DNA of 64,000 bases, from NCBI RefSeq assembly GCF_921292975.1, contig NZ_CAKLCM010000003.1:496001-560000 (forward strand), read 5' to 3'. This document shows, in pieces, positions 10,474-44,018 of the stretch. A program made the position numbers and the translations under genes. The notes below the pieces were generated by a model. It had not been told where the DNA came from and searched no databases. It worked only from the letters and a program-made list of their open reading frames with translations. The stretch comes from Vibrio hippocampi. Its GTDB lineage: Bacteria; Pseudomonadota; Gammaproteobacteria; Enterobacterales; Vibrionaceae. Every line of letters begins with the position of its first letter. Position 1 is the first letter of the stretch.

Positions 10474-11958
10474 ATGGATGCGAAGAGAATAGCCGAGCTG
10501 CAGGATGAGCCAGCTTGCGAGCATAACAGCGGAGAAAAATCGGGCTGTTCACGACCCACACCGGGTGCGACGGCGGGCGGATGCAGCTTAGATGGCGCAC
10601 AAATCAGTCTATTTCCAATTGCTGACGCCGCCCACATTGTGCATGGTCCCATCGGATGTGCCGGAAACAGTTGGAACAATCGTGGCACCAAAGCGGTTGG
10701 CTCAAATCTGTTTCGCTATGGATTCACCACCGACCTCGACGAGCAAGATGTCATTATGGGGCGGGCAGAAAAACGCCTGCTCCACGCAATCAAAGACCTG
10801 ATAGAGCGTTACGACCCGCCGGCGGTATTTGTCTATATCACGTGTGTGCCTTCATTAGAGGGCAATGATGTGGAAGCCATTTGTAAGCTGGCGGAAGATA
10901 AGTGGTCAGTCCCGGTGATTTGTGTCGATGCCGCAGGGTTTTATGGCAGCAAAAACTTGGGTAACCGAATCGCTGGTGAGGTGATTGTTGATAAGGTGGT
11001 AGGTCGAGCCGAGCCGCCACCGAAGCCAGCCATGTTGCATGATGAAACGCGCTTGGTTCACGATATCGTGATGATTGGTGAATACAATATTGCGGGTGAA
11101 ATTTGGCATGTAACGCCACTGTTTGAACGCTTAGGTATCCGCATGCTTTGCTGTTTAGCGGGGGACACTCAGTTTCATCAAATTCCGACCATGCATAGAG
11201 CTGACGCCGCAATGGTGGTCTGCTCGCGGGCGCAAATTAATGTCGCAAGACGTCTGGAAGAAAAATGGCAGATCCCGTGGTTTGAGGGCAGCTTTTATGG
11301 CATTGAAGATACCTCGAATGCGTTGCGTCAGTTTGCCTCGCTACTGGGTGACGACAAGCTAACCCAAGAAACCGAACAGCTGATCGCCGAAGAAGAGCAG
11401 GCGATTCGCGCGCAACTGAAACCCTATAAAGACAAACTCAGCGGTAAGCGCGCATTGCTCTATACCGGAGGGGTGAAGTCTTGGTCGGTGGTCGCCGCTC
11501 TGCAAGAGTTGGGGATACAGGTCATTGCGACTGGCACCAAGAAATCGACTCTGGCTGACAAGGCACGTATTCACAATATTATGGGTGAAGACGCCTTAAT
11601 GCTCGAGGAGGGCGGCGCAAGGCTGCTATTGGACACCTGTTATCAATACCACGCCGATATCATGATTGCTGGCGGTCGAAATATGTACACCGCGATAAAA
11701 GCCAAGATCCCTTTCCTCGATATTAACCAAGAGCGTGAACACGCCTACGCCGGTTATCAGGGCATGTTAACCCTAGCGAAAGAGTTGCTGCGCACCATCG
11801 AAAGTCCGGTTTGGAAGCATGGGCGAAGCGTTGCCCCTTGGCAGCGAGAGCCGTTAGCCGATTCGACGCCAACGCTGACTCTGCATAGTGCTGACACTCA
11901 GTCATCGTCTTGTGTCGCGTTGCAGCCGAGCCAAACCACGACGGAGGAGATGGAATGA
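10474..11958 (+). CDS. nifE: FeMo-cofactor scaffold protein NifE
   Basis: NifD paralogue that with NifN forms the scaffold where the NifB-co precursor is completed to FeMo-co. 494 residues. The N-terminal [18 protein letters not shown] and [22 protein letters not shown] are characteristic of NifE, and [17 protein letters not shown] carries another cluster Cys. The C-terminal 40 residues after the conserved ESPVW segment are variable. Its stop overlaps the nifN start as ATGA. First gene of a second sigma-54 unit. Confidence 0.96.
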
Positions 11959-13415
11959 GCAAGTTTATAACGAGTAAAGATCTAACCAATAAAGATCGAA
12001 CTAATAAAGAGTTAGCCAATAAAGGTTTAGCTAATAAAAAGTTAACGAAAAAGCCTGTCATCAGTCATGTGACGAATCATCAGAATGCGTTGGTGACCAA
12101 ACCGTTAAAAACCAGTCAATCCACCGGTGCTGCGCTGGCGACCATGGGGTTTGCGGGCAGTATTCCGCTGATTCATGGCTCTCAGGGATGCAGCGCCTTT
12201 AGTAAGGTTTACTTGATTTCGCACTTTCGCGAGCCGTTTCCAATTCAAAATAGCGCCATTGACCAAGTGGCGGCGGTGATGGGGTCGGAAGAGAACCTTA
12301 TCGTGGCGTTGAATAATCTGTGTGAGAAACATCAACCGCAATGCATTGCGGTATTAACTACGGGTTTGACGGAGATGCAGGGCAGCGATATCTGGCTAAC
12401 GATAAAGAATTTTAAGCGAGATTTCCCCCAACATGCCCAGATAGAGGTGGTGCCAGTTTCAACCCCAGACTTTAAGGGGTCGATGGAGTCAGGCTTTGCT
12501 GCAATGGTCAGCGCGGTGGTCAAGCAATGTGCCGATCCGATGCCGACAAAAATACTTAAGCAGCAAGTCAATGTGCTGTGTTCGGTCACGACAACGCCGG
12601 CGGATATTGAGCTGATTAGCCGGTATTTAGAGGCATTTGGTCTTGAAGGGCTTTTTCTGCCGGACATTTCACAGTCATTAGATGGTCATCTGCAAAGCGA
12701 CGACCTGTCGCAAACCTCAACCGGTGGCACCACTATTGAACAGCTTGCCACTGTGTCGGCGAGTGGCTTAACCCTGTGTTTGGGTGAGTCGATGTTGCCA
12801 CTGGCGAAATGGTTAAATCAGCGATTTGCTATTCCGATGCTCTCCCTATCGATGGGATTGGAATCGTGCGACGAGCTGATCCACCACCTCACGATTTACA
12901 GCAAGAAACCCGTCCCCAAATGGATCGAGCGCAGCCGTCAGCGTCTATTGGATGCGATGCTCGATAGCCACTTTGTTCTTTCTGATGCGCATTATGGGGT
13001 CGCTGCGGAATCGGATCAGGCAGCCGGTTTTTCTCGCTTGCTACAAGAAATTGGCGCGGGATATGTGCATATGGTAACCACCAAACAGGGCGCGTGGTGT
13101 GCTGACACGCCGTTCCAAGTGGTGATTGGCGATATGGCGGAATTGGATCAAGAGTATCACCATTTAGACCTAGTACTTGGCAACTCTCATCTGGCAGATT
13201 TTGTTCCTCACGACTTGGCTCATATGCGTATTGGCTTTCCATGTTATGACCAATTCGGCAACAGCGACCGGCTCTATTTAGGCTACGAAGGGGCACGAGC
13301 CTGCCTATTTGAAATGGCGAATTTATGCTTGCGTCATCATAAAGAAGAAGTGACGCCCCATGTCAGTCGTTATGCGTTTAGTGCGCAGGAGGTAGTGTGG
13401 AATGGTCGTGCGTAA
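11955..13415 (+). CDS. nifN: FeMo-cofactor scaffold protein NifN with repeat-built N-terminus
   Basis: NifK paralogue, partner of NifE. The family-conserved part begins at about residue 43 with [18 protein letters not shown], followed by [12 protein letters not shown] and [12 protein letters not shown]. In front of it lies an unusual lysine-rich extension made of five-residue units ([25 protein letters not shown]), encoded by five 15-bp repeats at 11970-12044. The ATG at 11955 overlaps nifE by 4 bp and has GGAGGAGA upstream. No internal start near the conserved region is clearly better, so the extension is probably translated. Confidence 0.93.
11970..12053 (+). repeat. Five 15-bp tandem repeats in nifN
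   Basis: Five consecutive 15-bp units plus a partial sixth, each of the form RCN-AAT-AAA-RRN-YTA, in frame with nifN. Confidence 0.9.
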
Positions 13416-13884
13416 ATTGCATGTAGAAAGCGATGATAACCAATTTACGGCAATCGCGCGTGTCGCGTTTGCTACCGCGGATAGAGTGCATGTTGATCAA
13501 CATTTTGGTCAGACTAAGAGCTTGGTGATCTATGAAGTAAACAAAGAGAGTCATCATTTGGTCGATGCTATCGACTTTGTCTCTGGTGAGCAGCGGGGAC
13601 ATCAACATTTAGCGGATAAGATCAAGATGCTGGAAGATTGTGATGCGGTGTATTGCAACGCCTGTGGCGTCTCTGCTTTACGGCAGTTATTGGCTCAGGA
13701 TACCTATCCGATCAAAGTCGAGCAGGGCATGGCAATCAAAGTTTGTTTAGCGACGCTACACCATGAATTATCAATGGGCAGTGTGCGTTGGATAAAATCT
13801 TCCAATAAAAAATCAGCCGTCAAGAGTGAGTCGAGATCAGACTTGGACTTGTTACTTGATGAGCCTTGGAATCAAACCGAATAA
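13402..13884 (+). CDS. nifX: NifX, FeMo-cofactor/NifB-co carrier
   Basis: NifX family protein of 160 residues, a carrier of cofactor precursors between NifB, NifEN and MoFe protein. The core runs from about [22 protein letters not shown] through [18 protein letters not shown] to the C-terminal helix. The tail after residue 135 is charged and variable. It starts 14 bp before the nifN stop, with AGGAGG upstream, so translation is coupled. Confidence 0.93.
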
Positions 13885-13904
13885 TATTCACAAGAGGGAA
13901 CGCA

Positions 13905-14162
13905 ATGGGATTAACAAAAGGAGGTGCAACTTGGGCACCGATGTTTATACAGAGCTTAGATCAAACCACCTGTATTGGTTGTGGTCGCTGTTTTAAGGTC
14001 TGTTCACGCGATGTTTTCGACTTGGAAGAAGCCGAGTTTGAAGACGATTATGGCGATGACCAAGTGATGATGGTGATGAAGATAAAAGACGACAGCGACT
14101 GTATTGGTTGCCAATCATGCAGCAAGGTGTGCAGTAAACGCTGCCACACGTTCGCGGCGTAG
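13905..14162 (+). CDS. Nif-specific ferredoxin III (2[4Fe-4S])
   Basis: An 85-residue ferredoxin with two clusters: [16 protein letters not shown] and [11 protein letters not shown], followed by SKRCHTF. It matches the nif-specific ferredoxin III family that follows nifENX in many diazotrophs and probably feeds electrons to cofactor assembly or to NifH. The ATG at 13905, preceded by GAGGGAACGC, is preferred over an earlier frame start at 13866 that overlaps nifX. Last gene of the first nif block. Confidence 0.92.
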
Positions 14163-14219
14163 TTGACTGTACGGTGCAGATAGGAACTCTACTGCGCTTG
14201 TGACTAGTGAAATGGTGAA

Positions 14220-14247
14220 GTAGTGAAGAGTGTGCTCTCTTCACTAC
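14220..14247. terminator. Bidirectional hairpin between converging genes
   Basis: An 11-bp perfect stem (GTAGTGAAGAG with CTCTTCACTAC) and a 6-base loop between the rightward ferredoxin gene and a leftward hypothetical gene. No T tract, so termination strength is uncertain. Confidence 0.6.
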
Positions 14248-14264
14248 ATAAAATCCAATAGCGT

Positions 14265-14795
14265 TTACAGCTGAGGATCAACAACGACAAACTGATTGGT
14301 GCCAGAAATAGGCGCATACCAACTCTTGCCAATAACGTAAAACGTCGCACCATTCACGGTTACTGTGGTGGCGTTAGAAGGCACAAACTCAACAATATCG
14401 CCTTTCGACATCTGCGATGAGTTGCTGATGTTCTGATTCTCCACGGGTGGTGACGCTTCATAGGTGTAAGTATCTTGATCTTGTCGGTAGTAAGCATTGT
14501 CAACAATGGCATAGGTTATACCAGCAATAATCGCGAATGCAGCGGTTTCGGGAAGATTGCTTTTTTTGTAAACCGTTTTCGAGGGGGATTTATTGCTGGG
14601 CTTGTATCCAGGCTTAACCACCACGACAGGAGACCGACCAGAGTTACCTCCGGGGTTATTGGGTTTGGCACCCGAACCGGATCCTGAACCCGAATTCGGA
14701 ATCGGCTGTGCCGGCGGTTTAGCGTTGATGGTAGGGGCAACCATCCCTAGTAACGCGCACATAGCGAGTGTTTTCATCGACAGCGAATAATTCAT
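14265..14795 (-). CDS. Secreted hypothetical protein, Gly/Pro/Ser-rich (possibly DUF6515-like)
   Basis: A 176-residue exported protein. A signal peptide (MNYSLSMKTLAMCALLGMVAPTINA, cut after about residue 25) is followed by a low-complexity segment rich in Pro, Gly and Ser, one short hydrophobic stretch (TAAFAIIAGITYAIV), and a C-terminal beta-rich part with GATFYVIGKSWYAPI. The last part is reminiscent of small periplasmic YYV-type domains such as DUF6515. Function unknown. A weak AAGGTGA lies upstream of the chosen ATG. Confidence 0.55.
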   Translation of the reverse strand: MNYSLSMKTLAMCALLGMVAPTINAKPPAQPIPNSGSGSGSGAKPNNPGGNSGRSPVVVVKPGYKPSNKSPSKTVYKKSNLPETAAFAIIAGITYAIVDNAYYRQDQDTYTYEASPPVENQNISNSSQMSKGDIVEFVPSNATTVTVNGATFYVIGKSWYAPISGTNQFVVVDPQL

Positions 14796-14941
14796 CTCAG
14801 GTCACCTTGTTTTCAAACTCTAAGGACTACCGCGCTGCCAAGTTGCGCGCGATAAAGACACATAGGCTTAAAATGTGTCTCCGTAAACTGTAGTTGCTTT
14901 ATGCCGACTTGAATACCTGCGATGCGTTGGTTCTCATTAAT

Positions 14942-15049
14942 GAGTTAGGAAATAGGAAGTAGGGGGTAGAGACTAGGAAGTAGAGGCTAGGAACTAGGGG
15001 TAGAGTCTAGAACCTAGAACCTAAAATCTAGATTCTAAAACCTAACATC
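14942..15049. repeat. AGGAACT/CCTAGAA heptamer repeat tract, copy 2
   Basis: About 14 degenerate 7-mers. The left part reads AGGAAGT, AGAGGCT, AGGAACT; the right part reads AGAACCT, AGAACCT, AAAATCT, AGATTCT, AAAACCT, so the tract is partly self-complementary. It reaches into the last codons of the yqfB gene. Confidence 0.75.
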
Positions 15050-15349
15050 AAAAGATATGACGTAGAATTGCTGTTGGTCTGGGTAAATCTCTTGAATCAC
15101 AGCAATTAACTGCTCTAGCGTCATATTTTCTTGTCGCGCATGTTCTTCAGATAGTTGATCTAGAGTAATGGCTTGGACATCGGTAATGGTGAACTGACAA
15201 AACCAGCGGTCGTCTTCATAGGTCGAAACCTGCACCACACTGCCGATGGCAAAATCTCTTTCGCTGCTATCGCGGATAGTAATGGTCTTTTTTCCAGACA
15301 GAATATCGGTCTCGAAGCGTTGGAAGAAGGTGATTTTGGTTAATGACAT
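15035..15349 (-). CDS. yqfB: N4-acetylcytidine amidohydrolase YqfB (ASCH domain)
   Basis: A 104-residue ASCH-fold protein matching E. coli YqfB, which hydrolyses N4-acetylcytidine to cytidine. Conserved segments are ITFFQRFETDILSGKKTITIRD (with the catalytic Lys/Thr region), the HARQENMTLEQL block and the final QQQFYVISF. The ATG at 15349 is chosen by alignment with YqfB; an in-frame ATG lies 18 bp upstream. The C-terminus overlaps the heptamer repeat tract. Confidence 0.9.
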   Translation of the reverse strand: MSLTKITFFQRFETDILSGKKTITIRDSSERDFAIGSVVQVSTYEDDRWFCQFTITDVQAITLDQLSEEHARQENMTLEQLIAVIQEIYPDQQQFYVISFDVRF

Positions 15350-15423
15350 CGCTTTGGTTCGGCTCAATAGAGAATAGTGAGCGGATAGTAGTGGCTGTTT
15401 GTTAAGGAATCAACCAAGAAATT

Positions 15424-15451
15424 AATAAGGACGAGCGGGCTCGTCCTTATT
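15424..15451. terminator. Strong bidirectional hairpin
   Basis: A 13-bp perfect inverted repeat (AATAAGGACGAGC with GCTCGTCCTTATT) with a two-base loop upstream of yqfB and downstream of the pyrophosphatase gene. It likely ends leftward transcription from the pyrophosphatase gene. Confidence 0.7.
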
Positions 15452-15520
15452 GTTTATCCCATTAGAAATGTAGCCGTCGCTTTCACCGCCCTCGATCACA
15501 GCACATTGCAGCAAAGGGCT

Positions 15521-15591
15521 GTGCAGTAAAAGATAGTGCAGTGAAAGACAGTACAGCAGCAGACAATACGGCAACAGAAAGCACAGTAATC
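15521..15591. repeat. Degenerate 15-bp tandem repeats
   Basis: Four and a half 15-bp units starting GTGCAGTAAAAGATA and GTGCAGTGAAAGACA, decaying rightward, directly downstream of the pyrophosphatase stop codon. Confidence 0.7.
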
Positions 15592-15593: not shown

Positions 15594-17129
15594 CTATTGC
15601 GCTAAAGTGGCGTAGCTCGCTTTCGCTTGTTGCAACACCTGCATCGCTTGATCTGCTTCGCCCCAGCCAGTCACTTGCATACCGCCGTCTTTGCCTTTGT
15701 AGCTCTCGAACCAGATTTTGACAATATCACTCACGCCAATAAACTCTTGATTCAGTTGAGCGATGGTTTGGATCTCAGAGAACGGTGAATCTTGGGTCAG
15801 CACGGCGATCAACTTATCGTCTTGCTCGCCATCATCAAGCATTTTCAGAATACCGATAAGACGAACATTCACCACCTGACCTCGAGGGATTGCTTGCCCT
15901 AACACCAATACATCCAGCGGGTCACCATCGCCACCAAGCTCTTTGGGTAGCGCGGTCTGCGGCAGCGTGCCGTAGTTACCCGGATAGCCTAGATAGTTCA
16001 CAATGCGCGGCGCATCATTTTTAAGTTCCCAAATAATCTGTTTGTCGTTGTCTTTATTCAGTTCCCACTTGGCTGAGGTGCCTGTTGGGATCTCGACAAT
16101 GGCATTAATTGAACCGTCAGCGCTGACAACCGGATAATCATTAAAGCTACGTTTCTGCTGTAAAGTAAAGCTATCAACCAGACTCAAGCTCGCAGGAGTG
16201 ATGGTGGTGGCATCATACGCCAGTCCATGACCGGATTGGACTGTTTTGTAGCGCAACATATAGTCGAGCTTCCCTTTTGATTTAGAGAGTTTTTTCAGCC
16301 CTTTGTCGCTAAATTGTTTAAATAGCCCCATTTCAGAGGCAGATTTGCCCGAGCCACCAATGTTATCGCTATCAATGGACAATAGGTGTTTGGCGACGTC
16401 CTCAATCGCAAATTGATAACCCGTTAATGAAGCTAGGTCATATTGGCTCGCATCGGTCAGTTGGCGCAGTTCCTTTGAGCAATAGAACTCAAGGAAGGGA
16501 ACGGGATTTTTCGGTTTATTCCAACTGACATCGCGAGAGAAGTACATCAGCGAGCGATACAAGTCGTTGTCAAAATTGCTCATGCCAAGACGAGTCGGCA
16601 GATCAGCGGGCGTGATAGGCTCGCCGTTAAGATCATACTGCCACGTATTGCCGTCCTTAATCATCGCATCCCAAAACTGCGGCATATTGTCTAAGTCACG
16701 GTAGTCTTTATCCACCAAGACATTGACGCGATAGTTTAGACCGCCCCCTTGCATATGGGTAAATGTGTTGAAGGTGTGGTGACCATCGGTAAGATAGACA
16801 TCGCCATTGGGTGCCAATACCACGGTTTTCATGTCTTTTTTGTTCGCGCCAACCTCTTGTTCACATTCAAACGAGCTCGGCACACCGGGAACCGAGGTGT
16901 CAGAATAGTGCTTTAGTCCTTTTTGACCAGAGGCTTCGCAAATCTCATCGAATTGCTTTTTCTGATCGAACTGGTAGCGTCCTAGCTTATACATGACTTG
17001 GTCGTAACCGATAGAAGGTTGAGTTGGCTTGAGGTCTGCAAGAGGCAGATTGACAACATCGCCGACTTGGTAAGCAAAGGTCGGCATAGACAAGACCATT
17101 GCCCAAGGTAATAGGTAGACTTTGTTCAT
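15594..17129 (-). CDS. Exported fusion: ParB-like N-terminal domain + family I inorganic pyrophosphatase
   Basis: A 511-residue two-domain protein. A signal peptide (cut near PTFA-YQVGD, residue 19) indicates export. Residues about 25-300 resemble the ParB-like family (ParBc_2), with VYLTDGHHTFNTFTH as the DGHH motif. Residues about 330-500 are a family I pyrophosphatase that keeps the expected catalytic set: AKWEL, RIVNYLGYPGNYG, DGDPLDVLVL, DDGEQDDKLIAV and the late SYKGK. A periplasmic pyrophosphatase is unusual because the enzyme normally works in the cytosol. The two halves may act on the same phosphorylated ligand, but that is inference. Confidence 0.85.
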   Translation of the reverse strand: MNKVYLLPWAMVLSMPTFAYQVGDVVNLPLADLKPTQPSIGYDQVMYKLGRYQFDQKKQFDEICEASGQKGLKHYSDTSVPGVPSSFECEQEVGANKKDMKTVVLAPNGDVYLTDGHHTFNTFTHMQGGGLNYRVNVLVDKDYRDLDNMPQFWDAMIKDGNTWQYDLNGEPITPADLPTRLGMSNFDNDLYRSLMYFSRDVSWNKPKNPVPFLEFYCSKELRQLTDASQYDLASLTGYQFAIEDVAKHLLSIDSDNIGGSGKSASEMGLFKQFSDKGLKKLSKSKGKLDYMLRYKTVQSGHGLAYDATTITPASLSLVDSFTLQQKRSFNDYPVVSADGSINAIVEIPTGTSAKWELNKDNDKQIIWELKNDAPRIVNYLGYPGNYGTLPQTALPKELGGDGDPLDVLVLGQAIPRGQVVNVRLIGILKMLDDGEQDDKLIAVLTQDSPFSEIQTIAQLNQEFIGVSDIVKIWFESYKGKDGGMQVTGWGEADQAMQVLQQAKASYATLAQ

Positions 17130-21433: not shown

Positions 21434-21549
21434 GTCCCTCTCAATCTTGTTGCAGACAAGGGGGCGATAGTCGGTTCTCTTTTACAAAGTATCTCCCACA
21501 CAATCGCTCCCTATACGCAATCGCTTCTTATACATGACCGACATGCGCT

Positions 21550-29579: not shown

Positions 29580-29590
29580 AGTCTCTCTTT

Positions 29591-29665
29591 AAGACAATAA
29601 ATTGACTACCAAGTTAAGGCAATAAATAAATTATCAATTTAAGGAAATAAATAAACCACTAAGCC
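29591..29665. repeat. Three 25-bp tandem repeats at the 3' end of azlD
   Basis: Units begin AAGACAATAAATTGAC (29591), AAGGCAATAAATAAAT (29616) and AAGGAAATAAATAAAC (29641), each 25 bp. The last one includes the azlD stop codon and final codons, so the 3' end of the gene was apparently duplicated downstream. Confidence 0.7.
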
Positions 29666-31982: not shown

Positions 31983-33267
31983 CTTAAACGCTGGAAACGA
32001 CAATGAGCTTGGCAAGCAAGGTCACGGTTACTCTGAAAACGGTTACCTCGACAACTGTTACCTTGACAACTGTTACCTTGACAATAACGCCACAACGAAG
32101 ATTGATCCGCAAGTATTAGAAGTCATGATGCCTTACTTGACCGATTACTATGGCAATCCATCGTCTATACACCAAGTCGGTTCGCAGGTAGGTAAAGCGA
32201 TTCAGCATGCACGCCGACAAGTGGCGGATCTATTGGGGGCGGAGCACGATTCAGAAATCATTTTTACTTCTTGCGCTACTGAGGCGACCAGTACCGCCAT
32301 TTTATCTGCATTAGAGGCTACCCCAGAGCGTAAAGAAATCATCACTACAGAGGTGGAGCACCCGGCAACTCTTGCTCTCTGCGAATACTTGGAGCGCAAA
32401 GGCTATACCGTGCATTGGATTGGCGTTGATAAAAAGGGTCGACTCGATATGCAGGCGTATCAAGCCGCACTCAGTGACAATGTGGCGATAGTGAGTGTGA
32501 TGTGGGCAAATAATGAGACGGGAACCCTGTTTCCGATTGAAAAAATTGCCAAATTTGCCAAGGCGTTTGGTATTCAGGTTCATGTTGATGCGGTGCAGGT
32601 GACCGGAAAAATTCGTTACCGTGTTGCTGACACCAGTGTCGATATGTTGTCGGTATCGGCTCATAAATTTCATGGACCGAAAGGTGTCGGTGCCCTCTAT
32701 TTGCGTAGAGGCACTCGTTTTAGACCCTTAATGCGAGGCGGGCACCAAGAGCGTGGTCGACGCGCGGGCACGGAAAATGCCGCTTCGATTATTGGAATGG
32801 GGCAGGCATGTGAATTGGCGAAAGCCGCTATGGCTGAGTACTCAACAGAGATACAACGATTGCGCGACAGGTTGGAGCAAGGATTGCTCCAGCAAATCAG
32901 TCACTGTTTTGTCACCGGCGATACTCAGCACCGCGTACCGAATACCAGCAACATTGCGTTTGAGTTTATTGAAGGGGAAGCGCTTCTCTTGCTGCTCAAT
33001 CAGGCGAACATTGCAACTTCATCCGGTTCTGCATGCACTTCCGGTGCTTTGGAACCTTCCCATGTGATGAAAGCGATGCAGATCCCATTAACTGCGGCAC
33101 ACGGCACGCTACGTTTTTCCTTATCTAAATACACCACAGAGCAAGAAGTCGATCATGTGTTACAGACGTTGCCGACCATTGTTAGCCGTTTAAGAGCGTT
33201 ATCGCCGTATTGGGACAACGAGACGCAGCAACAAAAGCAAGATGCTTTTGAACCTGTTTATGGTTAA
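31975..33267 (+). CDS. nifS: Cysteine desulfurase NifS with repeat-built N-terminal extension
   Basis: PLP enzyme taking sulphur from cysteine for NifU clusters. The family core begins [12 protein letters not shown], with [14 protein letters not shown] holding the PLP lysine and [15 protein letters not shown] the active-site Cys. Standard NifS starts almost directly at YLDNNATT, but here about 36 residues precede it, ending in [20 protein letters not shown]. The motif was copied by 15-bp tandem duplication (32026-32085). The start at 31975 overlaps nifU by 8 bp and has AAGGAGG upstream. The rest has normal length. Confidence 0.96.
32026..32085 (+). repeat. Four 15-bp tandem repeats in nifS
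   Basis: Units encode [15 protein letters not shown] and CYLDN; the last two are almost identical at DNA level. They merge into the conserved YLDNNATT core. Confidence 0.92.
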
Positions 33268-33276: not shown

Positions 33277-34431
33277 ATGCAGCCAAGTTCCGTTAACCGT
33301 AATCATTTAAATCGGACGGTGGTATTTAACGATACCACCTTAAGAGATGGTGAACAGAGTCCGGGCGTCGCTTTCACTCGAAACGAAAAACTCGAACTTG
33401 CCCAGACCCTTTGGCAATTGGGAGTCCGTGAGTTGGAGGTGGGCATTCCCGCGATGGGAAGTAGAGAGCGCGAAACTATCGCTGCCATGAGAGAAACATT
33501 GCCGGAAGCCGCACTGATGGTGTGGGCCAGAATGGTGCCGCAGGATGTGGATCTCTGTCTCGATCTTGGCATCGACTGGGTTAACATCTCGATCCCCGCT
33601 TCACAGCAGCATCGCCAACATAAATTGTCGCTTTCTATGGCGCAGTTGTTTGCTCAGTTGCGACCGTTGATTGATGCGGTTAAATCTCAGGGGCTTAAGG
33701 TCTCTTTGGGGTTGGAGGATGCTTCTCGAGCCAGTTTAGATGAGCTTCTAGTGCTGATGGAATTTGCCTCAATTCATGGGGTATCACGAGTCCGTTACGC
33801 CGACACCTTAGGGGTTTTGGACCCATTCACCACTTATAACCAGATCAGCCAATTGATTGCCAATAGTGATGTGGCGATAGAAATGCATGCCCATAACGAT
33901 CTTGGCTTAGCAACGGCCAACTCCTTAGCAGCGATCAGCGCTGGCGTTGAGTCGGTGAACACCACGATTTGTGGTTTAGGTGAGCGAGCAGGTAATGCGC
34001 CGTTGGAAGAAGTCAGTGTTGCGGTTGAGGTGTTAGGCAAGGGCATCACGGGTATTGCGCTCGAACAACTCCCCAAGTTGGTTGGATTAGCAAAACAGTC
34101 CGCAGGGCTCGATTTGTCGCCGCATAAACCGATTATTGGTAAGCAGGTCTTTACGCATGAATCGGGGATCCATGTCGACGGATTACTCAAAGACTTCAAT
34201 AACTACCAAGGCTTTGATCCGCATATGGTTGGCAGAGAGCATCAACTGGTACTGGGTAAACATTCGGGCACACACGCCATGTTGGCGCTGCTATCACAAA
34301 TGGGCGTGGGACTGGATAAGATGCAACTGCCACAAATGCAGAACTTGCTCACCCATTGGAGTGAACGCAATAAGCGCATACCCAGTGTGCAAGATTTACA
34401 ACGTTTGGTGGAGGCGATTGATGGTAGATAA
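33277..34431 (+). CDS. nifV: Homocitrate synthase NifV
   Basis: Condenses acetyl-CoA with 2-oxoglutarate to give homocitrate, the organic ligand of FeMo-co. 384 residues. The conserved [14 protein letters not shown] opens the TIM barrel; [22 protein letters not shown] gives the metal-binding His pair and [13 protein letters not shown] the second signature. HESGIHVDG and [10 protein letters not shown] complete the family pattern. It starts 9 bp after nifS with AAGGAG upstream, and its 3' end overlaps nifW by 11 bp. Confidence 0.96.
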
Positions 34432-34474
34432 CGGTTTCATGTTAGATAGCGGATTGATGGGAGATGGCGGATTA
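34421..34474 (+). repeat. Three 18-bp tandem repeats at the start of nifW
   Basis: Units encode [12 protein letters not shown] and MGDGGL, each beginning with ATG. The first overlaps the nifV stop codon, so the repeats created new upstream start codons. Confidence 0.88.
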
Positions 34475-34791: not shown

Positions 34792-35298
34792 ATGTACAAG
34801 GAAACTCGTTTTGATGTTGGTGACCAAGCCAGAGTGGTACGCACGGTTCGCAATGATGGCTCGTTTGAGCATGGTTCAAAAAAGGGTGACTGTTTAGTGG
34901 AAGCCGGCGCAGTCGGGTTTGTACGCAGTTTTGGCTACTACTTGCAAAATAAAGTGGTGTATCGGGTTTACTTTCCTGATGTCGATCGAGAGATCGGAGT
35001 GAAAAGTGAAGAACTGATTAGTGCCGAGTTGAACTGGCACCCCAATCCTTACCATTTAAAACAAGAAGTAGTGCTTGCCTCTGGCTTAGCCCACCACGGG
35101 CAGTTGATTGCTAAAAAAGGCGATGTCGTGACTATCATTCGTATTCACCGGGATATGGACTCTGGTGAGTTGAGTTATCAGGTGCAGTTTTCTGGTCGTT
35201 GGGTTTGGTTGCCATTAAAGGCGATTGCGCAGGGTGCCGAGCTTGACACGGACGTTGAGCTTGATACGGACGTTAAGTTGATGGCACAAGTCGGTTAA
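34792..35298 (+). CDS. nifZ: NifZ, MoFe-protein P-cluster maturation
   Basis: NifZ-family protein, needed for formation of the second P-cluster. 168 residues. The NifZ core appears twice as SH3-like beta units: FDVGDQARVVRTVRNDG near the start and LKQEVVLASGLAHHGQLIAKKGDVVTII later, with VVYRVYFPDVDREIGV between. The C-terminus carries the duplicated ELDTDV sequence. AGGGAAGGA precedes the ATG. Confidence 0.9.
   Translation: MYKETRFDVGDQARVVRTVRNDGSFEHGSKKGDCLVEAGAVGFVRSFGYYLQNKVVYRVYFPDVDREIGVKSEELISAELNWHPNPYHLKQEVVLASGLAHHGQLIAKKGDVVTIIRIHRDMDSGELSYQVQFSGRWVWLPLKAIAQGAELDTDVELDTDVKLMAQVG
35239..35274 (+). repeat. Two 18-bp tandem repeats in nifZ
   Basis: GAGCTTGACACGGACGTT and GAGCTTGATACGGACGTT, one base different, encode ELDTDV twice at the C-terminus. 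Confidence 0.95.
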
Positions 35299-36178: not shown

Positions 36179-37012
36179 ATGTTTCTACGATGGGCTAAAT
36201 GGCTATTGTTTTCAACGGTAATGCCTTCAGCGGTAATGTCGTCTTCAGTAATGTTGTCTGCGTTAACGCTGTCTGCGGTGATATTAATACCTCAAGGCGC
36301 TGTCGCAAGTGAAAGTCATCACCTCACAGTCGCGGTGGCGAACAACTTTTATCGCCCGATGCAAGCACTTGCGCAACGTTACCAGCAACAAACGGGCGTC
36401 AAGGTGCAGTTGTCCACAGGCAGTAGTGGGCAGCTGGCAACACAGATTGAACAAGGCGCACCGTTTGATGTTTTCTTCTCGGCAGACCAAACTCGACCGA
36501 AAAGATTAGAGCAGCTGGGTTTAGTGGACAGTCGTGTCACTTATGCGCAAGGCAAGCTGGTACTCTGGACTCGTGACGCCTCATGGACACCAAGCAGTGA
36601 CGGACATTTATCGTCAATGTTACACGGACGAATCGCGCTAGCCGAGCCCAGTGTTGCGCCTTACGGCAAGGCAGCGATGGAGTGTTTAAACAATCAAGAT
36701 TTACTCGAAACATTTAACAAGCAGTTGGTCTATGGCAAGGGACTAAATGCCACGTTTCAGTTTGCTGAGACAGGCAATGCACAGTTCGCTTTTTTGTCTT
36801 TATCACAGGTTAAAAATCAAGCATTAGGTCGCTACTGGCTGATTCCCCAATCTCTCTATTCACCTATCAACCAACAAGCCGCGGTGATTACACATCGCCC
36901 AAACCATGCAGAAGCCAAGGCATTTTTATTGTTTGTGACTTCTCAGGCGGTGCAACCGTTGTTAGAGAGCTATGGCTATGGCTTAAATCATGATGAATTA
37001 GCGAAATCATGA
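36179..37012 (+). CDS. modA: Molybdate-binding protein ModA
   Basis: Periplasmic substrate-binding protein of the ModABC transporter. The mature part starts near SESHHLTVAVANNFYRPMQAL, with STGSSGQLATQIEQGAPFDVFFSAD as the ModA oxyanion-binding signature. It has 277 residues. The signal peptide is unusual: its hydrophobic core is built from four 15-bp repeats giving (V/L)-M/T-x-S-A-like units. The link to nifM suggests a nif-dedicated molybdate supply; tungstate cannot be excluded. Confidence 0.92.
   Translation: MFLRWAKWLLFSTVMPSAVMSSSVMLSALTLSAVILIPQGAVASESHHLTVAVANNFYRPMQALAQRYQQQTGVKVQLSTGSSGQLATQIEQGAPFDVFFSADQTRPKRLEQLGLVDSRVTYAQGKLVLWTRDASWTPSSDGHLSSMLHGRIALAEPSVAPYGKAAMECLNNQDLLETFNKQLVYGKGLNATFQFAETGNAQFAFLSLSQVKNQALGRYWLIPQSLYSPINQQAAVITHRPNHAEAKAFLLFVTSQAVQPLLESYGYGLNHDELAKS
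36218..36277 (+). repeat. Four degenerate 15-bp repeats in the modA signal peptide
   Basis: Units read GTAATGCCTTCAGCG, GTAATGTCGTCTTCA, GTAATGTTGTCTGCG and TTAACGCTGTCTGCG, in frame, enlarging the hydrophobic core of the signal peptide. Confidence 0.85.
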
Positions 37013-37719: not shown

Positions 37720-38825
37720 ATGTTCAGCTTAACGCGCACTTTCCTGACTTCAAACTGGCGATAGATGTCAATATCCCCACATCGGGTGTCACCGCTTTGT
37801 TTGGTGCTTCCGGCAGCGGTAAGACGACGACCCTGAGAGCCATTGCGGGATTGACTCAGCTGACGAATAGCTGTGTTCGTTTTAATGGCGAGATCTGGCA
37901 GTCGAATCGTACTCAAAAAAAACACAGTCAAAAAACGCCCACTCAAAGAATAGACAGTCGCGATTATCTCCCCACGCATCAGCGGCAAATCGGCTATGTG
38001 TTTCAACAGCCGAATTTGTTTCCTCACCTGAATGTACAAGGCAATCTTGCGTTTGGTTGTCCATCCTTTAAACAGACAAAAACGCAACGACAGCTAGATG
38101 ACTTGGTTGAGATGTTAGATATTGGACATTTACTCAAGCGTCGTGTCCAGCAACTCTCCGGGGGAGAGCAGCAGCGTGTTGCCATTGCGCGAACTCTGTT
38201 GACTAACCCAAGGCTGTTATTGATGGATGAACCGTTATCGGCACTGGATCAAAAGCGCAAAAATGAGGTGCTACCTTATCTACAAAGGTTAACTCAAGAG
38301 TTGGCGACGCCAATAATCTATGTCACCCATTCATTAAATGAAGTCGTGAAGCTTGCCCACAATATTGTGCTATTTGAGCAAGGTAGGGTGAATTATAGCG
38401 GTAGTATCGCTGAAGCTTGGCCTCGTTTGCAGAACATAAATGGCAGTGAAGAACCCAGTGCTGTGCTTGAATTATCTTTAGTCGAACACTGCCATGATGG
38501 TTTAACGTTATTGCAAAGCCAGAGTGTCGAGTTATTGCATGGGCAAATTGAGCAAACTGTTGGCAGCCGAGTTCGATGTCAAATTATGGCGTCTGATGTC
38601 AGTATTAGCCTGAGTCACCGTGATCAGTCATCTATTCTCAACCGTTTGCCCGCGACAATCGTTCAACTCTGTCCATCAGCAAAACTTGGTGAAGTGTTGG
38701 TATCGCTGCGACTTGAAGACAATCAGCGTATTTACGCTTTGCTAACCCAGCGTTCTTGTGACTTTTTACAATTGATGAACAATATGCAGGTTTGGATACA
38801 AATAAAAACCTTGGCAATTGTATGA
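37713..38825 (+). CDS. modC: Molybdate ABC transporter ATPase ModC
   Basis: ATPase of the molybdate importer, 370 residues. Walker A FGASGSGKTTT, signature LSGGEQQRVAIAR, Walker B LLLMDEPLSALD and the H-loop YVTHSLNE are intact. The C-terminal TOBE/Mop domain begins near NRLPATIVQLCPSAKLGEVLV and may bind molybdate for feedback. A basic insert (NRTQKKHSQKTPTQR) lies between Walker A and the Q-loop YVFQQP. Last gene of the nifU-to-mod unit. Confidence 0.95.
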   Translation: MLDVQLNAHFPDFKLAIDVNIPTSGVTALFGASGSGKTTTLRAIAGLTQLTNSCVRFNGEIWQSNRTQKKHSQKTPTQRIDSRDYLPTHQRQIGYVFQQPNLFPHLNVQGNLAFGCPSFKQTKTQRQLDDLVEMLDIGHLLKRRVQQLSGGEQQRVAIARTLLTNPRLLLMDEPLSALDQKRKNEVLPYLQRLTQELATPIIYVTHSLNEVVKLAHNIVLFEQGRVNYSGSIAEAWPRLQNINGSEEPSAVLELSLVEHCHDGLTLLQSQSVELLHGQIEQTVGSRVRCQIMASDVSISLSHRDQSSILNRLPATIVQLCPSAKLGEVLVSLRLEDNQRIYALLTQRSCDFLQLMNNMQVWIQIKTLAIV

Positions 38826-38975
38826 CTTATTCTTTGGTGATAAATTGCAATACAGATAGTGATGAAAGTTTGATTTCAAAACGATATTTTGTTGATTTTT
38901 CGATGAAAGCTCCTTTTGTTATAAATTGTTTGTTACAATTTCCGCAACTTGGGGAAGTTAATTATCAATAGAGTT

Positions 38976-39920
38976 ATGGAACGACGATTGTTATCAAAGC
39001 AACAGTATTTGGATATTTTGGAGCAGATGCCTGCCCATGTTTTTATTTTTTCTGAGCAAGGTGTCTATCTGGATATCTTTGGTGGGGTAGACAATAATAT
39101 TGATTCGGACTTTAAGCAGTATATCGGAAAAAATATTAATGATATTTTCCCACAAGACTTAGCGCAATTATTCCTTGGTTACATCAGCCAAACGTTGGAT
39201 GCCAATGCGACACAAGTTGTTAAATATCACTTCAGTCCGGAACATTTGAAGGTCTTACCTACTTTTATTTTTGGTCAAGTTGAATTGTGGATAGAAGGAA
39301 TCATCAAGCCCTATGTGATGGAAGATGGACAACGAGTGGTGATTTGGACTGCACGTAATGTTACCGAAAAACATAGTTTAGAAGAAAAACTTCGTCAACT
39401 GTCTGAGACCGATGTATTAACACAAGTGTTCAACCGTCGAGCTTTTATGGATCGCTTGTTTTCGTGTATTGAGCGCTTTGAACATACCGAACAAAATACG
39501 TCATTCTTAATGATGGATATTGATTACTTTAAGCGAATTAATGACAGCCTCGGTCATCAGTTGGGTGATGTGGTTATTAAGCATGTCACAGAAGTTATTA
39601 CTCGTGAATTAAGAGAATCCGATATTATTGGGCGTATTGGTGGTGAAGAGTTCGGAATTATTCTCCCAAATACTAATATTAGTGATGCCGAGGACATTGC
39701 CGAGCGATTAAGGTATCAAATCCAAAACACGCCTTGTTTCGTTGATGATAGAAATATATCTGTGACGGTGAGCATCGGTGTATCGAAACTCGCGTCAGGG
39801 GAAGATGAGTGTAAGTATGTATTGACTCGTTCTGACCGTGCTATGTACTACTCCAAAAACAGTGGTCGTAATTGTGTGACCGTCTATTGTGAAGCACTGT
39901 GCCAAGAATTATTTTCTTAA
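38976..39920 (+). CDS. PAS-GGDEF diguanylate cyclase
   Basis: Cyclic-di-GMP synthase candidate. An N-terminal PAS-like domain (about residues 5-125, DILEQMPAHVFIFSEQGVYLDIFGG) is joined by a short coil to a GGDEF domain starting DVLTQVFNRRAFMDRL. The active site reads GGEEF, a functional variant, and the SDRAMYYSKNSGRN end is typical. An RxxD inhibitory site is visible as RESD five residues before the active-site strand. The ATG at 38976 is favoured over a TTG at 38949, but neither has a strong ribosome site. It sits between modC and nifQ inside the nif region, so a role in coupling lifestyle to nitrogen fixation is possible but unproven. Confidence 0.88.
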   Translation: MERRLLSKQQYLDILEQMPAHVFIFSEQGVYLDIFGGVDNNIDSDFKQYIGKNINDIFPQDLAQLFLGYISQTLDANATQVVKYHFSPEHLKVLPTFIFGQVELWIEGIIKPYVMEDGQRVVIWTARNVTEKHSLEEKLRQLSETDVLTQVFNRRAFMDRLFSCIERFEHTEQNTSFLMMDIDYFKRINDSLGHQLGDVVIKHVTEVITRELRESDIIGRIGGEEFGIILPNTNISDAEDIAERLRYQIQNTPCFVDDRNISVTVSIGVSKLASGEDECKYVLTRSDRAMYYSKNSGRNCVTVYCEALCQELFS

Positions 39921-39933
39921 ACGGATTAGCTTT

Positions 39934-39981
39934 ACCTCAGTACAAATATACCTCAGTACAAATTTACTCAAGCACAAAAAT
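39934..39981. repeat. Three 16-bp tandem repeats between converging genes
   Basis: ACCTCAGTACAAATAT, ACCTCAGTACAAATTT and the degenerate ACTCAAGCACAAAAAT follow each other without gaps downstream of the cyclase gene and of nifQ. Confidence 0.85.
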
Positions 39982-39991
39982 AGCCAGCGGT

Positions 39992-40582
39992 TTATTCTGC
40001 AAAGCACTGTTTAAAACTGCTGCATTGTAAACAGTTTGGTGCTTTGCAGACATAGTCGCCTTCTTGGTCACAAAGCTGTTTATAGAAGAAACGTTTCCAG
40101 CGCATATTGAGATTGTTTTTGGCAAACAATTTGGGGAAATAGAGCGCAATGATATTACTTAACGTTGCTCTGTCCGGTAGCGCGAGTGTTTCCCAAAGAT
40201 GGTTGGGAGCCACACAGCCGGTCGCCAATACTTTCGCCATTTCATGCCCCAGTGGCACTTGTCCATCAAGATGAGCGAGCAATAAGCAGAATAAGTCGTC
40301 TCGCTCTTCCTCTCTGCTATATAGCAGGTCAGTAAATATATCTTGGGTCAGTCTTTGTTTCATTTGTTGAATAAGCGGCGCGGGTTGGCGGTCGTTAGCG
40401 ATAAATCGCAGACGCAGGCGCTCATAGTTGTCTTTCGACAGTCCCATCGAATGGGGCAGTCGAGCCCGACCACAAACAAAGCCCTCAAGTAATAGCTGCC
40501 AATAATACTGTTCGTGATAGTGATTGGTGCTCTCTTCCTCAAAAGCTTTGAGTGACTTATCTAGTTCTCGGTTCACTAACAT
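39992..40582 (-). CDS. nifQ: NifQ, molybdenum donor for FeMo-cofactor synthesis
   Basis: NifQ supplies Mo to NifEN on a Mo-Fe-S cluster. The 196-residue protein ends with the diagnostic C-x4-C-x2-C-x5-C motif (CKAPNCLQCSSFKQC). Upstream parts such as LYFPKLFAKNNLNMRWKRFFYKQLC are family-typical. It starts 7 bp before the end of the ferredoxin gene (GGGAG upstream), as third gene of nifB-fdx-nifQ. Proximity to modABC fits a Mo-handling role. Confidence 0.95.
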   Translation of the reverse strand: MLVNRELDKSLKAFEEESTNHYHEQYYWQLLLEGFVCGRARLPHSMGLSKDNYERLRLRFIANDRQPAPLIQQMKQRLTQDIFTDLLYSREEERDDLFCLLLAHLDGQVPLGHEMAKVLATGCVAPNHLWETLALPDRATLSNIIALYFPKLFAKNNLNMRWKRFFYKQLCDQEGDYVCKAPNCLQCSSFKQCFAE

Positions 40583-40815
40583 GCTGTCAAACTCCCTGCT
40601 GGGTTGGCAGGAATACCATCACGGGTAATGGCTTCCTCAATCGGGCAAATAGAGACACATTGTGAATGTTCAAACTGCCCAATACAGTCATTGCATCGCT
40701 TTTGGTGAATCGCAAATTTTGGGCTACTTTCGCCAGTTTTGTAGATCGCTTTGTTAGGACAAACCAAATAGCAGGCGTGGCAACCAGTGCATTGTTGATT
40801 AATGGTCAGTGTCAT
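40576..40815 (-). CDS. 2[4Fe-4S] ferredoxin between nifB and nifQ
   Basis: A 79-residue ferredoxin with CTGCHACYLVCP at the N-terminus and CNDCIGQFEHSQCVSICP in the second half; the long spacing in the second motif is typical of nifB-linked FdxN-like ferredoxins. It probably donates electrons to NifB radical-SAM chemistry or to NifH. GAGGAG lies six bases upstream. Overlaps nifQ by 7 bp. Confidence 0.92.
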   Translation of the reverse strand: MTLTINQQCTGCHACYLVCPNKAIYKTGESSPKFAIHQKRCNDCIGQFEHSQCVSICPIEEAITRDGIPANPAGSLTAC

Positions 40816-40832
40816 GTCGTGCTCCTCTCTGG

Positions 40833-42131
40833 TTAAGCCAACTGTTGCTGAGTCGTTAAACGGTTATCGACCTGTTTAGCTTGTGATTTCGCAATACACA
40901 GTTTCGCAATACACAGTAGCGATAATGCCTCACGAATCGACATAAACGCGAAGTCCACATTGGGGGCAATACCGTGCTGCTTCAATTCCTCCCACGGACC
41001 CAGACCGATGCGGCTTGAGAGAACTTCTTTACAATCCATCAGAGCGTCAAGCGGTAAAGGTTGGTCGCATTCAGACTGACCATTGCAATAAGGCGTTACA
41101 TGACGAGTTTCGACAAATCGTGCCTCGTTTTCGGTTAGCTGATAAATATCAAATTGTGTCGCGTGACCAAAATGACAATCAATAACATCCCCTTGTTTGC
41201 TGGCGACTGCCACAAGGTATTTATCTTCGGTCGATTGATTGGTGCTACAGGCGGTATCAAGCGTGCCAACGGCATCGGCGCGACACTGCTGACAGTGCGT
41301 CATCTGTGGCACATGCATAACAGATTGGCTTCGTGCTTGAGCAATTTCCTCTTCGGTCGGGGCAGGGTGATGATTTAGACCAAAATAGGTGCCGTGCTCG
41401 GGGGCAGAGATTAAAGGCATGATGTTATGTAGCATAGCGCCGGCGTGCTTGAGTTGCTCCGATAATGCCTCAATGCCCTCTTGGTTGATATTGGGGATCA
41501 GCACGGTATTCACTTTGACCAACATGCCTGATTCAGCTGCCTTTTTGAGTCCTTTCAGTTGTTGCTCGATTAACAACTCCGCGGCTTCTTCTCCATGCCA
41601 ACGGCGATGGTTCCAAAAGATCCAAGGGTAAATTTTTGCGGCGATTTTAGGGTCGGTGGTATTGATCGTTACCGTGAGGTGATCAACCCCCAACGCGGCT
41701 AATCGGTCAACGTGTCGATACAGATCAAGCCCATTGGTGGAGATACATAACTTAACATCCGGACTCGCTTGGTGAATCAACTCTAAGGTTTTAAAGGTGT
41801 AATCTGGGTTGGCTAACGCATCACCGGGTCCGGCAATGCCAACCACGGTGAGGTTTGGCATCCGCTGCTTGATTGCATGGAAGCGCGCCAGTGCTTCGAC
41901 CGGACTGAGTAGGTTAGAAACCACGCCAGGTCTTGACTCATTACTGCAATCGTATTTTCGATTACAGTAATTACACTGAATATTACACGCCGGAGCGACG
42001 GGTAAGTGGATGCGCGCATAGTTGCCAGCAGATTTAGAATAGCAGGGGTGCTCCGCGATACGACTCTGTATCGATTTATCAAAAAAATGCACCACTGAAT
42101 GATTATCGGGTTGGTTTGACAAATTTGTCAT
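40833..42131 (-). CDS. nifB: NifB, radical-SAM FeMo-cofactor core synthase with C-terminal NifX domain
   Basis: Builds NifB-co (8Fe-9S-C) from Fe-S clusters. The radical-SAM motif is in PACNIQCNYCNRKYDC (CxxxCxxC), followed by VGIAGPGDALANPD and CISTNGLDLY. Residues from about 310 form a NifX-like domain (YLVAVASKQGDVIDCHFGHATQFDIY). The C-terminal tail contains a perfect duplication, LCIAK-LCIAK. A GTG at 42137 abuts the ribosome site; the ATG at 42131 has AAGGAG five bases upstream and is preferred. It has its own sigma-54 promoter and NifA site. Confidence 0.96.
   Translation of the reverse strand: MTNLSNQPDNHSVVHFFDKSIQSRIAEHPCYSKSAGNYARIHLPVAPACNIQCNYCNRKYDCSNESRPGVVSNLLSPVEALARFHAIKQRMPNLTVVGIAGPGDALANPDYTFKTLELIHQASPDVKLCISTNGLDLYRHVDRLAALGVDHLTVTINTTDPKIAAKIYPWIFWNHRRWHGEEAAELLIEQQLKGLKKAAESGMLVKVNTVLIPNINQEGIEALSEQLKHAGAMLHNIMPLISAPEHGTYFGLNHHPAPTEEEIAQARSQSVMHVPQMTHCQQCRADAVGTLDTACSTNQSTEDKYLVAVASKQGDVIDCHFGHATQFDIYQLTENEARFVETRHVTPYCNGQSECDQPLPLDALMDCKEVLSSRIGLGPWEELKQHGIAPNVDFAFMSIREALSLLCIAKLCIAKSQAKQVDNRLTTQQQLA
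40887..40916 (-). repeat. Perfect 2 x 15-bp tandem duplication in nifB
   Basis: TTTCGCAATACACAG occurs twice in direct succession without mismatch, encoding the LCIAK repeat close to the NifB C-terminus. Confidence 0.97.
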
Positions 42132-42171
42132 TGACACTCCTTGTCAATTTATCAGGTATTAGCGATTAACT

Positions 42172-42187
42172 TGCAAAGCATGTGCCT
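42172..42187 (-). promoter_or_regulatory. Sigma-54 promoter of nifB-fdx-nifQ
   Basis: On the minus strand AGGCACATGCTTTGCAAG: GG at 42186-42185 and GC at 42174-42173, 10 bases apart, the best match to TGGCAC-N5-TTGCA in the window. It lies about 42 bp before the nifB ATG. Confidence 0.88.
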
Positions 42188-42256
42188 AGCTTGGTTGATT
42201 TTATTTATATTATTTTCAATAAGTTATAGTTAGGTTTGTTCGGTGTGAGTAAAGAA

Positions 42257-42272
42257 TGTTCATAAGCGAACA
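42257..42272. promoter_or_regulatory. NifA upstream activator site of nifB (TGT-N10-ACA)
   Basis: TGT at 42257-42259 and ACA at 42270-42272, 10 bases between, about 70 bp upstream of the nifB -24 element. It abuts the nifA terminator hairpin. Confidence 0.8.
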
Positions 42273-42307
42273 AAAAAGGATGTCGTAAAACTGACGACAT
42301 CCTTTTT
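42272..42307 (-). terminator. Rho-independent terminator of nifLA
   Basis: AAAAGGATGTCGT pairs with ACGACATCCTTTT (13 bp, 7-base loop); U tracts on both strands. It separates leftward nifLA from the leftward nifB unit. Confidence 0.92.
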
Positions 42308-42326
42308 AAGTGCGTGGGAGTAAAGA

Positions 42327-44018
42327 CTAGATCTGTTTCATCTCAATATTCATGGTCTTAATTCGATAAGCGATCTGTCTTGGCGTCATATTTAAGATCC
42401 GCGCGGCTTTCGCTTTTACCCAACCAGATTGTTCTAGGGCGTTAATGACGCGGCTTCTTTCATTGCTGTCATATTCAAGGTTAATCCCTCCATAACCAGA
42501 ATTCGCCGCACGTTCGCCGCCGTGTAGGGGTGAAGTTGGCATAGAACCTGTCGGCATAGAACCAGTCGGCATAGAACCAGCAGGCATCGAAGTCGGCATA
42601 GAAGCGGGCATGGAAGGCGGCGAATAACTGGCAGGAGGCGGGGTTTGCACACTGCGCTGCAAGGCGGCAAAGTCTCGTGTCGGGTTAAATCGGATTAGCT
42701 TTTCGGTAATCATACCTTCACCACTTAGCACCGCTGCACGCTCGATGGTGTTTTCAAGCTCCCTGACGTTACCGGGCCAGTGATAGCTCATCAAATGGCT
42801 CATGGCTTCATCGCTGATGGAAAGCTTACGGCTCTGTATTCCTGAGAGTTTATCTAAAATTGAACTGGCCAGTTGTGGTATATCTTCCAATCGATCTCTG
42901 AGTGGTGGAAGGTTAATTGGCATCACGTTTAAGCGATAGTAAATATCCTCTCGAAAGTTGCCAGCCAGTACTTCTTCTTCCAGACATCGGTTGGTGGCGG
43001 CGATAATGCGCACATCAACGGTGATGGGTTCTGTCCCTCCGACACGGTCGAAGGTTTTTTCTTGTAGCACTCGTAACAGTTTGGTTTGGAAAGCAGGACT
43101 GGTTTCGCCGATTTCATCCAAAAAGATGGTGCCGCCATGGGCGAGCTCAAAGCGTCCTTTCTTCTGCTTTACTGCGCCAGTAAATGCGCCTTTTTCATGT
43201 CCAAAAAGCTCCGATTCCAATAAGTTATCTGGCAGTGCGGCACAGTTAAGCTTCACAAATGGAAAATTAGCGCGGGGCGAGTTGTAATGGATGGCATTGG
43301 CGATCAACTCTTTACCTGTCCCTGATTCCCCACGAACTAAAATGGTCGAATCCCAGCGAGAAACCAGACGCACTTGGTCGAAAATTTCTCGCATCACTTC
43401 AGTATGACCCACCATAGATTGGACGCCATAGTCTTTGCGTAGTTTACGTCGTAATCCATCGCGTTCATTGACGATATGTTTCTGTTTGATCGCGACGTTA
43501 TGACCCAGTTGAATATTGACGGTGAGTAGGTTGGCGATCATTTCAAGAAAGCTGTGCAACTGACGAATGTCTTGTTCCAATTTGGTGTTGGGCTGGGCGC
43601 AAATGACGCCAATAACTTGCTTATTGACGCTCTTAAGAGGCACGCAAATAAAGGGTTTACCGTAATCGTAAATAGCAAGCTTATCGACAAAGCGGTTATC
43701 ACTGCCAAGGTTCATCAACACAATGGAGCCGCCATGCTTCATCACGGTGCCAATTAAACCTTCGCCCTGTTTATAGCTGATGTTTTTGTTGTTTGCGGTT
43801 GCGTCAAGTGACGGCGCATGAACGGTTTCAACCAGCATGATGTTTTTTTCTCGATCCAACACCGATAGCATGCCACCAAAAAGGGCGCATTCATCGTGTA
43901 ATATCTTCAGCACTTCAGGCAGCGTCTTTTTATAGTCAAGGCTTTGGTTTAGGTGGGTGCAGATTTTATAGAGAGTTTGTAACAATCCCTCACTGCTCAA
44001 TGACATGGTCTGGCTCAT
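42327..44018 (-). CDS. nifA: NifA, sigma-54-dependent activator of nif genes
   Basis: Enhancer-binding activator of 563 residues. An N-terminal GAF domain (about 20-170) precedes an AAA+ domain with Walker [12 protein letters not shown], the sigma-54 contact loop GAFTGA and [12 protein letters not shown] Fis-type helix-turn-helix ([19 protein letters not shown]) binds TGT-N10-ACA. The AAA+ to HTH linker is expanded by repeated MP(A/T)(G)S units and has no Cys motif, so it belongs to the NifL-controlled, not the intrinsically oxygen-sensitive, class. Its start overlaps nifL by 4 bp (ATGA), which supports stoichiometric expression. Confidence 0.96.
42538..42606 (-). repeat. 15- and 12-bp tandem repeats in the nifA linker
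   Basis: Three 15-bp units (42538-42552, 42553-42567, 42568-42582; GGCATAGAACCNGTC-like on the plus strand) followed by 12-bp units give the linker [14 protein letters not shown] and related MPAS/MPTS blocks. Confidence 0.92.

Follow-up and report, generated by a model that had tools for sequence, protein, structure and literature searches.

Bacterial minisatellites, or variable-number tandem repeats (VNTRs), are head-to-tail arrays of 10-60-bp units that occur within as well as between genes, and those used for typing usually comprise a limited set of loci. Short tandem duplications are also made by FEN1/Pol I flap-processing mutators, in which they arise from unprocessed flaps and are flanked by short direct repeats. 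Here, we analyze the short tandem arrays in and around the nif and mod genes on a 64,000-nucleotide stretch of the Vibrio hippocampi genome (assembly GCF_921292975.1, contig NZ_CAKLCM010000003.1, positions 496,001 to 560,000), hereafter the window, together with a sample of the remaining genome. With units of about 10-60 bp repeated head to tail, the arrays are by kind newborn minisatellites, unusual in their number, narrow unit length and low junction homology. In contrast to typing VNTRs, they number 152 in roughly one quarter of the genome, differ in sequence from locus to locus and show a narrow peak of unit length.

A survey of prokaryote satellites (PMC6749651) reports, in its accessible part, that some species are satellite-rich and that coding satellites tend to have multiple-of-three units; the arrays studied here are alike in both respects. 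The kinds set out in that part are amino-acid-repeat genes, derivatives of GC-rich microsatellites and dispersed families, whereas ours are locus-specific 12-19-bp intergenic duplications, and the word Vibrio is absent from the survey's text. Heptameric intergenic repeats have been described in Nostoc and Xanthomonas (PMC4692102) and the heptamer TAACTGA in Beggiatoaceae (PMC4679880); going by the accessible parts of these articles, the main 12-19-bp class differs in being neither heptameric nor united by a common sequence. Eukaryote small tandem duplications are similar in being small tandem copies, but the accessible part of PMC8355091 ascribes them to fill-in at breaks, a route that ends in non-homologous end-joining, whereas no Ku was found in the present genome. 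The accessible part of PMC2884548 holds nothing on such a duplication class, and no report of it in Vibrio was found by title or abstract opening in a search that most subscription journals lay outside.

We consider it likely that the arrays share a single mutational origin, a process acting across the whole genome that copies about 12-19 bp head to tail and whose rate is raised in this lineage. The sample comprises the window and 56 stretches of 20 kb from the three main contigs (0.5-2.4 Mb each), together 1.184 Mb (1.12 Mb outside the window), a total that leaves out two small contigs (40 kb); the stretches were evenly spaced except for L077 and L078, chosen for holding 5'-nuclease genes. 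Arrays were counted at a score of at least 50 and a period of up to 60, a threshold that under-counts two-copy units below about 13 bp, and genes were called with our own codon-score script, not a standard gene finder. The 152 arrays occur on all three main contigs, 14 in the window and 138 in the other 1.12 Mb, where 112 of the 138 are not within coding sequence. At least one non-coding array was present in 50 of the 57 stretches (window included), as against 21 of 87 in pooled other vibrios, and a second-order Markov control (30 stretches) gave 2 arrays in 644 kb versus 14 in the 64-kb window. Non-coding density was 75.6 arrays per 100 kb in the window and 62.5 elsewhere in the sampled genome; the corresponding coding densities were 11.2 and 2.8. 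An earlier note on this DNA had described the repeats as a genome-level habit, which is borne out and now measured, arrays being found throughout the sampled genome. Its statement that they recur across the nif regulon misplaces them, as non-coding DNA throughout the sample is far denser in arrays than coding DNA, nif included, and the nif-gene repeats are one visible part of a genome-wide short tandem duplication. A dispersed repeat family or mobile small element was rejected as their source: the units are locus-specific and 40 of 8128 unit pairs have a 9-mer in common (shuffled mean 23.8, maximum 37), an excess that comes partly from a class of CTAG-core heptamers.

Exact duplications of 11-22 bp numbered 38 in the 1.184 Mb, as against 4 in 1.666 Mb of other vibrios, a pool of 87 stretches with one Photobacterium locus (L118), in which about 43 kb are seemingly counted twice (L120 with L073/L074; L127 with L071/L072) and whose baseline is raised by the resampling of G093 and G098 after a first stretch of each had looked rich. 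The Markov null held one such duplication in 644 kb. In the seven genomes that scored best for PolA out of 196 in the genus (identity 86-88%; 344 kb sampled), no exact duplication was present, and of the 4 arrays of any kind that reached score 50 a single one was non-coding. The density of non-coding arrays per 100 kb was 12.8 in the pooled other vibrios and 15.7 in nif loci of other bacteria, and 200 kb of E. coli K-12 yielded one array, a density of 3.8. Among single species (samples of 32-147 kb), the values were 68 (G093), 44 (G122), 43 (G115), 32 (G168), 22 (G098) and 8 (G239), and the present genome lies at the high end of density without being alone there. The ongoing duplication suggested in the earlier note draws indirect support from the presence of exact copies beside copies decayed to all degrees.

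Unit lengths fall in a narrow range. The 38 exact duplications have units of 12-19 bp (mean 15.0, s.d. 2.0), and beyond the 11-22-bp range we found one unit of 10 bp, none of 20-37 bp and two of 38 bp, both in one satellite-like stretch, in a count that by design did not bar longer units. Periods of non-coding arrays peak at 15-17 bp (mean 16.3, s.d. 3.2; n=99, 8-26 bp). The multiple-of-three rule is not a property of the process, since unit phase is free outside genes: unit length was a multiple of three in 30 of 32 coding arrays versus 37 of 109 outside genes (11 CTAG arrays excluded; Fisher P 6e-10). Codon phasing is therefore a reading-frame filter, imposed by coding sequence on one general process. 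With the frame preserved in 30/32 coding arrays, these are not the frame-switching units of contingency or phase-variation loci. Selection would remove frame-breaking and core-disrupting events, leaving mainly in-frame copies in tolerant places of genes; of the coding arrays, 32 in all, 13 are no more than 30 residues from the N-terminus and 6 equally close to the C-terminus. Outside genes, 87 of 116 arrays had a gene 3' end as their closest gene end, as against 53 predicted by the make-up of intergenic bases, convergent gaps held 45 arrays versus 22 expected and divergent gaps 11 versus 32, and a stop codon lay at most 30 bp away in 56 of the 110 arrays with a stop codon nearby.

The in-frame 15- and 18-bp tandem units reported for NifN, NifS, NifW, NifZ, ModA, NifB and NifA are real. 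Tandem Repeats Finder at a score of at least 30 picks up all of these except ModA, which is too decayed to be reported; there, lag-15 identity was found at 34 of 45 positions, a value equalled at any of five lags in none of 5000 codon shuffles. Gene names fit Pfam matches (ten proteins scanned) and homologue searches (NifA, NifN). The arrays within the nif and mod genes are:

11975..12053, plus strand: array at the NifN N-terminus with some five 15-bp units, reading K(D/E/G/K)(L/R)(T/A)N
32024..32084, plus strand: NifS N-terminal array, 15-bp units, with an exact run from 32050
34416..34473, plus strand: array spanning the nifV end and nifW start, 18 bp x 3.2 (NifW by Pfam PF03206)
35239..35274, plus strand: NifZ C-terminal array, 18 bp x 2, ELDTDV ELDTDV
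36209..36283, plus strand: ModA signal-peptide region, about five decayed 15-bp units
37911..37947, plus strand: ModC array, weak, 15 bp x 2.5
40887..40917, minus strand: NifB C-terminal array, 15 bp x 2 exact, LCIAK LCIAK, junction homology 1 bp
42534..42621, minus strand: array in the NifA linker that separates the AAA+ part from the HTH_8 domain; MPTGS units of 15 bp and shorter decayed units

Alignments indicate that the repeats of NifN, NifS, NifA and ModC are not fixed among related species and that several arrays are lineage-specific insertions, which answers for these four proteins whether identical repeats occur in all relatives; the ends of NifW, NifZ and NifB are too variable across species for a firm statement on fixation. 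The NifN array lengthens the protein by some 35 residues in front of the conserved NifN start, and its extension is present in none of the 24 other NifN sequences aligned (25 in the alignment), two of which (P0129 and P0138) have N-terminal extensions of their own that are unrelated to this repeat. A search of plasmids with the nifN region gave a single weak match, in Pantoea. In NifS, the final unit consists of the conserved CYLDN that belongs to the YLDNNATT motif, and what was copied is therefore the gene's own sequence; CYLDN occurs once in NifS of G007 and G008, and YLDN three times in the aligned NifS of the genome studied. The ModC repeat stretch is a gap in 6/6 aligned orthologues, of which that of G122 (27%) is too remote to count. 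All 24 sequences shown vary in the NifA linker. In Vibrio sp. WXL103, whose NifA (P0002) is the best match from another organism, the equivalent linker holds a different, unrelated seven-residue repeat, and the WXL103 genome may share the repeat habit.

Among the plain two-copy exact events, junction homology was at most 3 bp in 15 of 19 and at least 4 bp in 4 of 19, bearing in mind that later mutation can shorten apparent homology; by formula, about 98% of events are expected at 3 bp or less if no homology is required. This low junction homology suggests that little homology is needed, although later mutation may hide some. A third copy was already recognisable in 13 of the 17 exact events (of 38) with an overhang of at least 4 bp. 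As a tentative mechanism, we propose that slippage or strand displacement during replication or repair synthesis could yield a strand of 12-19 nt that is retained and joined even where base-pairing homology is slight; once two copies exist, ordinary slippage would make the third and fourth.

Ordinary slippage at a rate normal for bacteria, between short direct repeats that were already there, could by itself have produced the arrays if weak selection alone made them frequent here. We regard this as possible, with the odds somewhat against it. Arrays of three or more copies are common, 4 of the 19 two-copy events do have at least 4 bp of homology, and in the pooled other vibrios unit lengths are similar and the 3'-end bias recurs (20 of 27 versus 12 expected), at lower density. 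However, slippage of this kind sits poorly with the 15 two-copy events at 3 bp or less and with exact unit lengths that end at 19 bp, and the 13-fold excess of exact copies, which are recent because they are exact, calls for an elevated rate, or else for selection to have been lost to an unusual degree, and not just for old copies to be tolerated. It is also conceivable, if rather doubtful, that a so far unrecognised duplication process is at work, Ku-free, with a 12-19-bp ruler and almost no need for homology. It would act mostly at gene 3' ends, perhaps in connection with transcription termination or convergent transcription, and would make proteins steadily longer at their ends.

Staggered breaks followed by fill-in and Ku-type end-joining, as in eukaryote small tandem duplications, would account for the low junction homology and the short units, which resemble those in the accessible part of PMC8355091. 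We nevertheless find this route very unlikely, because Ku (PF02735) was not found in the genome, although an equivalent search recovers it in B. subtilis, and no Argonaute (PF02171) was found in the genome to supply guide-length cuts; Argonaute-guided cutting was rejected on the same ground. An artefact of assembly or sequencing has a practically negligible chance of explaining copies that are decayed to all degrees, preserve the frame in genes and lie on three main contigs of such length. That the nif genes are specially targeted, with a role of the repeats in nitrogen fixation or its regulation, is improbable as well. In the nif/mod blocks, whose coding sequence totals 21.6 kb, 5 coding arrays stand against an expected 0.6 (pointwise P 0.0004; P 0.0065 for the coding-array excess in the window), and the unrelated repeat in the NifA linker of Vibrio sp. 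WXL103 would agree with such targeting. Yet the pointwise P is not decisive because the region was picked after its repeats had been seen. Of the simulated genomes, 38% had at least five coding arrays within some 31-kb span and 66% had six within some 64-kb span, and nif-specific enrichment was rejected as a claim on this ground. The nif coding cluster remains locally rich in arrays. In addition, most arrays of the sampled genome are non-coding and located elsewhere, the repeats are absent from the aligned NifN and NifA of other diazotrophic vibrios, and the NifA linker varies throughout. Repeat-rich nif genes require no nif-specific explanation.

Candidate defects in flap processing and exonucleases were set aside. 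Unlike in FEN1/Pol I flap mutators, the compared 5'-nuclease residues of PolA are kept (10 of 11 positions identical to E. coli, the exception being E72 to D) and a second 5'-nuclease protein is present. The two PF02739 proteins are encoded by frames of 956 and 263 residues, the latter of which we take to be Xni/ExoIX. With both genes present, loss of either 5'-nuclease, i.e., a Pol I/ExoIX flap-processing defect, was rejected, as was loss of ExoI, ExoVII or RecJ, each of which gave one match above the family cut-off, with no internal stop. For SbcC, the motif lies within a 1274-residue frame and a second copy of the motif 3.7 kb further on. The 3' end of this SbcC-like gene seemingly occurs twice, 3.7 kb apart (G000:C2:778389-782251; second copy L082 1949-2410), with other duplicated gene pieces around.

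Several observations weigh against a raised genome-wide rate in this lineage. Copy-number change was not seen directly, no same-species genome being compared; no same-species protein was among the best 120 matches in either homologue search (NifA, NifN), and among the matches listed the closest other NifA was 70% or 74% and the closest other NifN 61% identical. No gene lesion that explains the rate was found, in a search that did not extend to SbcD, MutS and other repair genes. Baselines differ widely: two of the four exact duplications of the other vibrios come from 40 kb of G122, and nif loci of other bacteria hold 23 exact events in 1.32 Mb, about half the rate of this genome, 13 of them at 12 bp. 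Within the genome, non-coding arrays number 28 per 100 kb on contig C1 versus 70 and 68 on C2 and C3, and the small contigs C4 and C5 (L018 and L019, 20 kb each) are without any array at score 50 or above over their 40 kb. The 4 of 19 two-copy events with at least 4 bp of homology exceed the about 2% expected if none were required, and the 3'-end bias could stem from selection against insertions in promoters rather than from the mechanism.

If the rate is truly raised, this genome acts as a natural mutator specific to one kind of change, the emergence of short tandem repeats, which is difficult to investigate wherever it seldom happens. The genome would then allow the origin of new protein termini and linkers to be tested, and the repair function that normally restrains such duplications to be sought.

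Outside the nif and mod genes, the window holds further arrays:

2377..2439, plus strand: C-terminus of a chromate-transporter-family gene, 18 bp x 3.6
10261..10300, unstranded: non-coding CTAG heptamer array, of a separate class
14949..15049, unstranded: CTAG heptamer-related arrays, period 7/14/21, the last part (15006-15049) overlapping a called gene end
15503..15586, unstranded: non-coding 15-bp arrays that adjoin the 3' end of the gene at 15594-17129
21501..21533, unstranded: non-coding array, 17 bp x 1.9
29589..29663, unstranded: non-coding array, 25 bp x 3.0
39933..39982, unstranded: non-coding array, 16 bp x 2-3, between two convergent gene ends

At a score of at least 50, six arrays of the window are fully intergenic and one overlaps a gene end (15006-15049); unit length is not a multiple of three in four of the six (14, 16, 17 and 25 bp). 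A 12-bp repeat in RnfD (48567-48590) was rejected as an insertion, since 6 of 7 aligned orthologues run ungapped through it, that of G007 being gapped.

CTAG is usually rare in enteric bacteria. The heptamers with a CTAG core (ACCTAGA, ACCTAGC, TAGGTGC, AGCCTAG) account for 11 of the 152 arrays, none inside called genes, and some are long and nearly perfect; further sites are L011 894-958, L080 8347-8450, L085 13331-13453 and L096 2959-3010. As far as the accessible descriptions go, this minor class is of the heptameric intergenic repeat kind but differs in unit sequence. Satellite-like arrays of 106-220-bp units with a CTTCGNAGGAAGG-like palindromic core were seen in at least two places (L014 17655-18161; L050 8672-9264), and L054 7164-8201 holds 2.2 copies, at 98% identity, of a 477-bp unit that starts with a tRNA-like sequence.

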